From NCBI GenBank assembly GCA_947477755.1, contig CANJVS010000003.1:1-35560 (forward strand): DNA of 35,560 nucleotides, written 5' to 3'. Of this stretch, positions 3,669-24,206 are shown piece after piece. The notes beneath the pieces were generated by a model, which saw only the letters and a program-made list of their open reading frames with translations, was not told where the DNA came from and did not search any database. The position numbers and the translations under genes are program-made. Positions within the stretch are counted from its first letter, which is position 1. Every line of letters begins with the position of its first letter. This DNA comes from Verrucomicrobiaceae bacterium (lineage in GTDB: Bacteria; Verrucomicrobiota; Verrucomicrobiia; Verrucomicrobiales; Verrucomicrobiaceae).

Positions 3669-4628
3669 TTAGTTTCCTGTGTGCTTGCCCAAGGCGCGAA
3701 ATTTCTGGTATCTCTGCTCTAAAAGCTGCGGGATTGGCAACTTTTCCAATTCAGAAATGGCCGCAAGCACGGCCGTCTTGAGCGAGGCTGCAGAGGTCTC
3801 ATGATCATTGTGAGCGCCACCGAGAGGCTCGGGCACGATGCCGTCGATGACTCCTAGTTCCGACAGATCCTGGGCACTTAGTTTCAGAGCTGAAGCCGCC
3901 TCGGGGGCATGTTCACGGTGCTTCCACAAGATGGCTGCGCATCCTTCCGGGCTGATCACGCTGTAGTAGGCATTCTCCATCATGAGCACACGGTCGGCTA
4001 TGCCGATGCCAAGAGCTCCACCAGAGCCGCCCTCACCAATCACGACGGCCACCACGGGAGTGCGCAGGGTCATCATCTCACGCAGATTAAAGGCGATGGC
4101 TTCAGCGATGTTACGCTCCTCAGCGCCAATACCTGGAAACGCGCCGGGGGTGTCGATCAAGGTCACGATCGGGAGGCCAAACTTTTCTGCGAGGCGCATG
4201 AGTCGCAGGGCTTTTCGATAACCTTCCGGATGTGCGCTGCCGAAGTTGCGCAGCAAATTTTCCTTGGTGTCACGACCCTTCTGATGCCCGATGACAACCA
4301 CCTTCTTATCGCCCCAGGTGGCAAAGCCAGCCGGCATGGCGTGATCGTCACCGATGTGCCGGTCACCGTGCACCTCGATGAATTCATCACAGCAGTGCTT
4401 CACATAATCGAGCATGAAGGGCCGCTGGATGTGACGGGAGATTTGCACGCGTTGCCAGGGGTTGAGGTTGATGTGGATGTCGCGCTGCAGGTTGTCGGCT
4501 TTTTTCTCTAACTCAGCAATCTGTGCGGCCAGCTTGTCGCTTGGTTTGTTGGCTAGTTTTTTTCTCGCCTCCTCGATTTCTTCGCGGAGTTTAACAACGG
4601 GTTTTTCAAATTCCAAGACTAGTTTCAT
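3669..4628 (-). CDS. accA: Acetyl-CoA carboxylase carboxyltransferase subunit alpha
   Basis: 319 residues, the usual length for AccA. With AccD it forms the carboxyltransferase that moves CO2 from biotin-BCCP to acetyl-CoA, giving malonyl-CoA for fatty acid synthesis in the cytoplasm. Visible hallmarks are the N-terminal coiled segment (LEFEKPVVKLREEIEE), WQRVQISRHIQRP, the DRHIGDD segment, the crotonase-fold core IDTPGAFPGIGAEER and the oxyanion-hole region GEGGSGGALGIG, followed by YSVISPEGCAAILWK. The start at 4628 gives the canonical N-terminus. It is last in a minus-strand run, 27 bp behind the LysM protein gene. accD is not in the window. Confidence 0.97.
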   Translation of the reverse strand: MKLVLEFEKPVVKLREEIEEARKKLANKPSDKLAAQIAELEKKADNLQRDIHINLNPWQRVQISRHIQRPFMLDYVKHCCDEFIEVHGDRHIGDDHAMPAGFATWGDKKVVVIGHQKGRDTKENLLRNFGSAHPEGYRKALRLMRLAEKFGLPIVTLIDTPGAFPGIGAEERNIAEAIAFNLREMMTLRTPVVAVVIGEGGSGGALGIGIADRVLMMENAYYSVISPEGCAAILWKHREHAPEAASALKLSAQDLSELGVIDGIVPEPLGGAHNDHETSAASLKTAVLAAISELEKLPIPQLLEQRYQKFRALGKHTGN

Positions 4629-4655: not shown

Positions 4656-5579
4656 CTAGCGGACAATGTAGAGTTTTGATCCATTGCGGACGAGCGCAAA
4701 CAATTCCTCAAGATCTGCGCGGGCCAGAAAGATGCCGGATTCAGGAGTTGCTGCCTCAGCCAGACTGTCTGCAACTGGCGGTGTTGCAGGAGGTTCGGTA
4801 CCGGGTTGCGCCTTGGCCATGGCCGGGGGCGTGATGCGCAGGGCGACCCCAGCGCGGCTTCCGGGAAGCCATTTCTCGGCATTGATGTAGCGCGGGTCGT
4901 TTGAGAGAATGGATTTGCCTTCGGCTACTGCGGACTTGCCCTTGATCTCCATTTCCGCAGGAGCTTTCACTCCGGGCGGCAGCCGGATGCTTTCGGCTAG
5001 ATACTCCTTGAAAAAGTATTCCTTCTCCCCGGCTTTGCGACGAAGTGTGACGGTCTTTTCAGAGATGTCCACGACGACCGAAAAATCGAGTGGCTGAATG
5101 GTGAGATGGTCGCCCGGCTGCAATGTGTTTCCCATCAGTCCATTCAAGCGAACGAGCATGTCCATGTTTGTAGCCTGCCTGGTGGCAATAAGTGCCAATG
5201 AATCACCCGGTTGAACAATGTAGTCTCGCTTGCCGATTTTATTTTTTAACGAGTAAATCTCATCAAGATTGATCTCGCCAATAATCCGTTTGGCTTCCGT
5301 GCAGGTAGCGGAATCAGGGAACTGCTGAAGCATCTTGTAGAGGAGTTCCCGGCCTTCATGAATCTTGTTCTCCTTAATCTGAGCGATCGCCACATCAAAG
5401 CGCTTTGACCCGGGATCGAAGCGTGGCATGTCGATTTTTTTCATCCCGGCCATCTCGGCCTGAATGAGTTTTTCTGGCGTCAGCACCCTGGTGTAAAAAT
5501 AATACGCCGTGGCCATGCATCCGAGAGTGATGCTCAGAGTGACCAGGAAGAGCAGGAGTTTAAGTTGCGTTTTGGCCAT
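4656..5579 (-). CDS. Membrane-anchored LysM protein with a degenerate L,D-transpeptidase (YkuD-like) domain
   Basis: 307 residues. An N-terminal hydrophobic segment (about 7-29) anchors it facing the periplasm. A short TPR-like helical region (about 60-105) is followed by a LysM domain (about 119-163; YIVQPGDSLALIA ... LNGL ... LQPGDHLTIQP) that should bind peptidoglycan. Residues 166-307 resemble an ErfK/YkuD L,D-transpeptidase fold. The last part, SGIFLARADLEELFALV, aligns with the active-site strand that normally reads HGCIRL before a Glu-Leu helix. Here the catalytic Cys position is Gly, and the preceding His-Gly is missing (GVALRI). It therefore looks non-catalytic, perhaps a peptidoglycan-binding structural protein. 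It is sandwiched between accA (27 bp) and an unknown gene (74 bp), probably co-transcribed. The LysM call is firm; the dead transpeptidase is my alignment by eye. Confidence 0.82.
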   Translation of the reverse strand: MAKTQLKLLLFLVTLSITLGCMATAYYFYTRVLTPEKLIQAEMAGMKKIDMPRFDPGSKRFDVAIAQIKENKIHEGRELLYKMLQQFPDSATCTEAKRIIGEINLDEIYSLKNKIGKRDYIVQPGDSLALIATRQATNMDMLVRLNGLMGNTLQPGDHLTIQPLDFSVVVDISEKTVTLRRKAGEKEYFFKEYLAESIRLPPGVKAPAEMEIKGKSAVAEGKSILSNDPRYINAEKWLPGSRAGVALRITPPAMAKAQPGTEPPATPPVADSLAEAATPESGIFLARADLEELFALVRNGSKLYIVR

Positions 5580-18314: not shown

Positions 18315-18446
18315 GCGCCCTGAAATACGCGCCTGCGGGCAGAAATCGCAACTGTCCATTTACAAACCAGTCATGAGGAATGTGATCCAGCGAGATGCAG
18401 CCACTGCTTGCAGGTGACGTTCTCAGCTTCTACCTACCCGGTCTCC

Positions 18447-24206
<5,760 letters not shown>

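Follow-up and report, generated by a model that had tools for sequence, protein, structure and literature searches.

An accA-linked LysM protein of the Verrucomicrobiota with a putatively inactive L,D-transpeptidase domain

We propose that a LysM protein encoded next to accA in a member of the Verrucomicrobiaceae is a pseudo-L,D-transpeptidase, a non-catalytic protein that would be anchored in the inner membrane, bind peptidoglycan in the periplasm, and serve there as a tether or adaptor. According to this proposal, to which we assign a probability of about 60% on the basis of sequence comparisons and a fold model, the protein descends from an accA-linked LysM enzyme.

Results

A conserved gene upstream of accA

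The window, by which we mean the whole stretch of 35,560 nucleotides that was analyzed, comes from a 53% complete assembly of a Prosthecobacter-like member of the Verrucomicrobiaceae. Orthologs of the minus-strand gene under study (Table 1) are present in 66 of the 68 genomes of the family and a match was found in 230 of the 240 genomes of the order, and we therefore consider the open reading frame to be a real, conserved gene and not a chance frame. Named records that encode relatives, with 59 to 96% identity, include those of Prosthecobacter isolates and of Brevifollis gellanilyticus.

The tie to LysM made in the initial annotation is a physical one, since the LysM domain lies in the same protein: the Pfam match spans residues 120 to 161 and scores 38.6 bits, above the cut-off of 20.9. 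The helical part that precedes it gives weak tetratricopeptide repeat matches in the relatives L064, L068, and L073. A single membrane anchor is predicted at the N terminus, which would place the C terminus in the periplasm; the start codons of the relatives were chosen by rule. Lipoprotein anchoring via LGC (residues 19 to 21) was considered and ruled out, as LGS occupies this position in some orthologs. Elsewhere in the window, a 1932-residue open reading frame (18408-24206, plus strand) resembles a head-to-tail fusion of two complete UvrA proteins and has four GxSGSGKS motifs of the Walker type.

Table 1. Position of the gene, of the parts of its product, and of the neighboring genes in the window
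Feature	Position	Strand	Basis or remark
LysM/putative pseudo-YkuD gene, 307 aa	4656..5579	-	Frame open in every sampled relative but that of G269 (0.9 Mb)
Residues 1-48, N-terminal helix with predicted membrane anchor	5436..5579	-	Helix 2-48 in the model; hydrophobic from about residue 8
Residues 56-109, three helices	5253..5414	-	Fold model; weak tetratricopeptide-like matches in relatives
LysM domain, residues 119-162	5094..5225	-	Pfam PF01476, E = 1.1e-9; 4uz2 LysM, E = 2e-11
Putatively inactive YkuD-type domain, residues 163-307	4659..5093	-	Profile comparisons and fold model
Arg248, site of the active-site His (HG)	4836..4838	-	Arg in 66/115 inactive copies, His in 38/38 active copies
Pro/Ala-rich variable linker replacing the catalytic loop, residues 251-281	4737..4829	-	Alignments; pLDDT of about 70
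Gly282, site of the catalytic Cys	4734..4736	-	Gly in 105/115 inactive copies, Cys in 38/38 active copies
Last strand-helix-strand of the YkuD fold (DLEEL helix), residues 282-307	4659..4736	-	Most constrained part
accA	3669..4628	-	27 bases downstream, same strand; NCBIfam PRK05724, E = 3e-140
Upstream gene, 177 aa	5654..6187	-	No Pfam family, no PDB fold match

The C-terminal domain is predicted to adopt a YkuD fold

By themselves, Pfam and NCBIfam detect LysM or general LysM proteins only, and PF03734 (YkuD) gave no match to the window protein at E values up to 10 in Pfam, let alone at the curated cut-off. The accA-linked active orthologs that were tested against PF03734 scored 76 to 84 bits (E = 1e-20 to 1e-23). 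The relationship between the two groups emerged from profile comparisons with hhalign, in which the profile built from 44 inactive C-terminal domains matched one of 14 active domains with a probability of 99.1% over 118 columns (E = 4e-19) and the N-terminal half, the negative control, reached 0.4% against the active profile. Comparison with two YkuD paralogs from the genome of the window gave 0.6%, this profile being probably too thin. Searched against the PDB, the same inactive-only profile retrieved Bacillus subtilis YkuD (E = 3e-5).

An AlphaFold model, for which only 57 inactive relatives served as input, had a pLDDT of 92.5 and yielded 16 PDB matches at E values of 0.001 or less, most of them annotated as L,D-transpeptidases or as YkuD relatives, with a best E value of 4e-8. 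The whole-chain TM-scores were low (0.28 by query and 0.49 by target), as is expected if the arrangement of the domains differs in the longer chain. Taken together, profile homology and the model predict that residues 163 to 307 form the beta-sandwich of the YkuD (L,D-transpeptidase) family. The kinship of the last segment with YkuD had initially been seen by eye, with a profile-profile search suggested as a check; that search, the PDB profile match, and the fold model all agree with it.

The active site is missing from the window protein

An ungapped alignment (ESGIFLARADLEELF / AGCIRLLNSDIEELF) places Gly282 in the column of the catalytic cysteine, which belongs to an (S/T)xGC(I/V)R motif, and Arg248 stands in the column of the upstream active-site histidine (the HG of 'GIHGTW'). 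The replacement of Cys and the absence of the upstream HG, both noted in the initial annotation, were thus confirmed at these columns, and the C-terminal domain of the window protein contains zero Cys and zero His. The TPxG motif is missing as well; it is found in 36 of the 38 orthologs that we call active, a term that denotes the presence of the active-site residues as judged from sequence, and 4 of the 115 inactive orthologs match the pattern. A search for a substitute nucleophile returned no Ser, Thr, Cys, or His conserved at 60% or more in the domain across the clade.

These observations suggest that the YkuD domain of the window protein is catalytically dead. They also argue against the earlier description of the domain as "binding-only," at least as far as the YkuD cleft is concerned: TPxG and the catalytic loop as a whole have disappeared too, and LysM alone is therefore a likely binder. 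We consider it very improbable that the domain is still catalytic via another nucleophile or a metal. Serine-dependent activity is reported for one YkuD-superfamily protein, of the YafK type from Legionella (PMC13400389), but the domain of the window has neither Cys nor His, no alternative residue reaches 60% conservation in the clade, and a variable Pro/Ala-rich linker occupies the place of the catalytic loop.

Catalysis appears to have been lost once in an ancestor of 17 families

Our sample, which was not exhaustive, comprised 154 orthologs: 38 active copies, 115 copies that lack the active site, and a single pseudogene. The last is L207, from the reduced 0.9-Mb genome G269, where four stops interrupt the LysM gene preceding accA, its upstream neighbor and accA itself being open. 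The inactive copies consist of L073 and of 114 members of one clade, which covers 17 families, namely, every one of the six families sampled within the window's order plus eleven more from elsewhere in the class; the catalytic pair is missing from all 114 of these clade members. Within the class, two further families (f86 and f87) have active copies (HG...SxGC) at this accA-linked locus, as do 17 families elsewhere in the phylum; in several families of the class (e.g., f7 and f9), accA is present but the gene is missing upstream of it.

In a protein tree of 132 sequences, obtained by a quick search with the catalytic-loop columns left out, a single change of state is needed (SH-aLRT of 95): the inactive copies group on one branch arising from the active ones, with L073 attached by a long branch at the base of this inactive group. 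For accA, an independent tree, likewise from a quick search, needs two changes, or one with L073 set aside. These trees point to one ancestral loss of catalysis in the window's clade, common to the 17 families. As for L073/L112 (genome G243), it has kept the His, carries Arg in place of Cys, and falls just under the cut-off of PF03734. We set it aside as an "intermediate," since the accA tree places it apart; given its long branch, it is best described as probably a second, independent loss in a distant genome. The initial annotation had envisaged either a conserved pseudoenzyme or a copy that is simply mutated, to be told apart by aligning orthologs. The former is supported by the loss of Cys and His from every sampled ortholog of the clade, and the latter does not apply, as the Cys-bearing orthologs found at this locus belong to other clades and the loss is ancestral to the 17 families.

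The accA linkage is shared with active copies

The gene lies upstream of accA on the same strand for 103 of the 115 inactive copies and for 35 of the 38 active ones (138 of 153 loci). Because active copies are also linked to accA, the gene order predates the loss of activity, and the linkage is probably an inherited arrangement and not evidence for a lipid role. The genus coded g12 is informative in this respect. No clear accA was found in the 15 g12 genomes searched (best PF03255 E values of about 1e-7 to 1e-9), and the members examined (L099-L101, L208-L211, and L213, in genomes of 2 to 3.5 Mb) keep the pseudo-YkuD protein. Several g12 copies have a signal-peptide-like start, and in the one member scanned, LysM falls just under the Pfam cut-off. 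The tie to accA advanced in the initial annotation thus stands as gene linkage but is not supported as a functional tie, the order being older than the loss and g12 retaining the protein.

The same observations bear on a regulator that would couple acetyl-CoA carboxylase, i.e., fatty-acid supply, to wall growth. Such a role would account for the same-strand linkage and for the gap of 27 bases in the window, but the active enzyme shares the linkage, AccA is cytoplasmic whereas the domains are predicted to be periplasmic, and g12 genomes keep the protein without showing a clear accA; we therefore judge it very improbable.

On the other side, the 177-residue gene is found upstream in 101 of the 115 inactive loci versus none of the 38 active loci. 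In genomes with an active copy it is located elsewhere or missing; the gene is widespread in Verrucomicrobiota and is also present in some genomes that have no LysM gene at accA. Given this distribution, we set it aside as a dedicated partner. Its product belongs to no Pfam family and its model (pLDDT of 82.8) has no PDB fold match, and for this reason, together with its unlinked occurrence, it is omitted from the mechanism proposed below.

The remaining domain is constrained

Substitution rates indicate that the gene is kept under purifying selection. For each part, the nonsynonymous rate was divided by the synonymous rate calculated over the entire gene (Nei-Gojobori; medians of 258 family pairs, which are not independent). 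The ratio was lowest for the last strand-helix-strand (0.15) and LysM (0.18), intermediate for the helices (0.22), the YkuD core (0.30), and the anchor (0.39), and highest for the linker (0.60), the least constrained part. The former catalytic loop is thus relaxed and the remainder of the dead domain is held. Consequently, it is barely credible that we are looking at a decaying gene in the course of being lost: the broken copy of one reduced genome would be an instance of this, but the frames are open in all other sampled members, from 17 families, selection is purifying, and 66 of 68 family genomes have kept the gene.

More weight must be given to a simple tether, in which LysM and the anchor do everything, leaving the dead YkuD domain as an inert, partnerless spacer or stabilizer. 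The retention of LysM and of the anchor almost everywhere, the freedom of the linker to vary, and the loss of the catalytic and substrate-loop motifs would all be in keeping with it. We nevertheless find it rather unlikely, since the constraint on the last strand-helix-strand equals or exceeds that on LysM and since D289 and E292 are retained in more than 90% of the copies, seemingly beyond the needs of a passive spacer.

YkuD paralogs are numerous where the accA-linked gene is inactive

Genomes with the inactive gene contain 6 to 18 YkuD loci (median of 11; 28 genomes), compared with 1 to 5 in genomes with the active gene (median of 2; 25 genomes) and 1 to 6 in genomes of the class without the accA-linked gene (median of 2; 15 genomes). 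Genome size does not explain the difference between inactive and active, the density being 2.67 versus 0.45 YkuD loci per Mb. In eight genomes (G268, G310, G371, G374, G423, G456, G516, and G582), the accA-linked gene is the sole YkuD match. A rank test on the paralog numbers, which ignores relatedness, gave a p value of 4e-10; because there is one transition on the tree, the rise counts as a single coincidence and not as independent support. One possible reading, which we advance tentatively, is that the YkuD enzymes multiplied from 1 to 5 to 6 to 18 per genome and that the accA-linked enzyme dropped catalysis and became a membrane-anchored, peptidoglycan-bound adaptor or regulator, organizing the others.

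Discussion

The intact preservation of the protein in at least 17 families strongly suggests that it has a non-enzymatic job at the cell wall. Sequence, fold model, trees, and substitution rates show its homology to L,D-transpeptidases, the loss of every catalytic residue, a single loss for the whole clade, and conservation of the gene. It is the ortholog of an accA-linked LysM L,D-transpeptidase whose active site other Verrucomicrobiota have kept. The YkuD domain lost Cys, His, and the catalytic loop in the last ancestor that the window's order shares with its sister families, the fold, LysM, and the predicted membrane anchor being retained under purifying selection. As for the present-day protein, we favor a scenario in which LysM would grip the glycan. 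The dead YkuD domain, and above all its conserved last strand-helix-strand, would provide a docking surface for partners, most plausibly envelope proteins such as the many YkuD paralogs of the genome. The conserved YkuD residues may also merely maintain the fold and form no docking surface.

Among kinases and phosphatases, pseudoenzymes are a familiar phenomenon; our search of the open-licence literature turned up no description of a family of L,D-transpeptidases that are naturally dead. The closest relatives within the phylum are the accA-linked LysM L,D-transpeptidases (e.g., L075, L114, L166, and L181), orthologous proteins with the same locus and domain order, which keep HG, SxGC, and usually TPxG, whereas the window protein has none of them. 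The best structural match is B. subtilis YkuD (PDB 4a1i, 1y7m, and 3zqd; Foldseek E = 4e-8 to 5e-7), which shares both domain types, LysM and L,D-transpeptidase. However, B. subtilis YkuD has a Cys/His active site where the window protein has Gly/Arg and no catalytic loop, and the window protein possesses in addition a predicted membrane anchor and an extra helical part. A functional likeness is offered by LdtJ of Acinetobacter baumannii, an L,D-transpeptidase with a catalysis-independent role in fitness and shape, whose inactive C390S variant still fulfils its role in growth and shape (PMC12548408). LdtJ is natively active, though, and was inactivated in the laboratory, and even its YkuD domain is dispensable there (PMC12548408). 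DpaA/LdtF and YafK-type relatives likewise use the YkuD fold for a function other than crosslinking, but they retain a nucleophile and hydrolyze, whereas the window's clade has no conserved nucleophile.

Glycine-containing tetrapeptides are a usual product of L,D-transpeptidase exchange. Such tetrapeptides, along with tripeptides, are present in the peptidoglycan of Verrucomicrobium spinosum (PMC12283558), whose muropeptides are consistent with active YkuD paralogs. The "unusual peptidoglycan" ascribed initially to this group of bacteria needs to be toned down, the peptidoglycan of V. spinosum being largely canonical, with non-acetylated glucosamine (PMC12283558). Targeted mutagenesis and a transposon essentiality dataset exist for V. 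spinosum (PMC12283558).

The occurrence of intact and lost active sites at one locus within one phylum makes the job of the dead form directly testable, and the same holds for the question of why catalysis went while the YkuD paralogs multiplied. Our proposal would also correct the annotation of this gene, which currently sees just a LysM protein.
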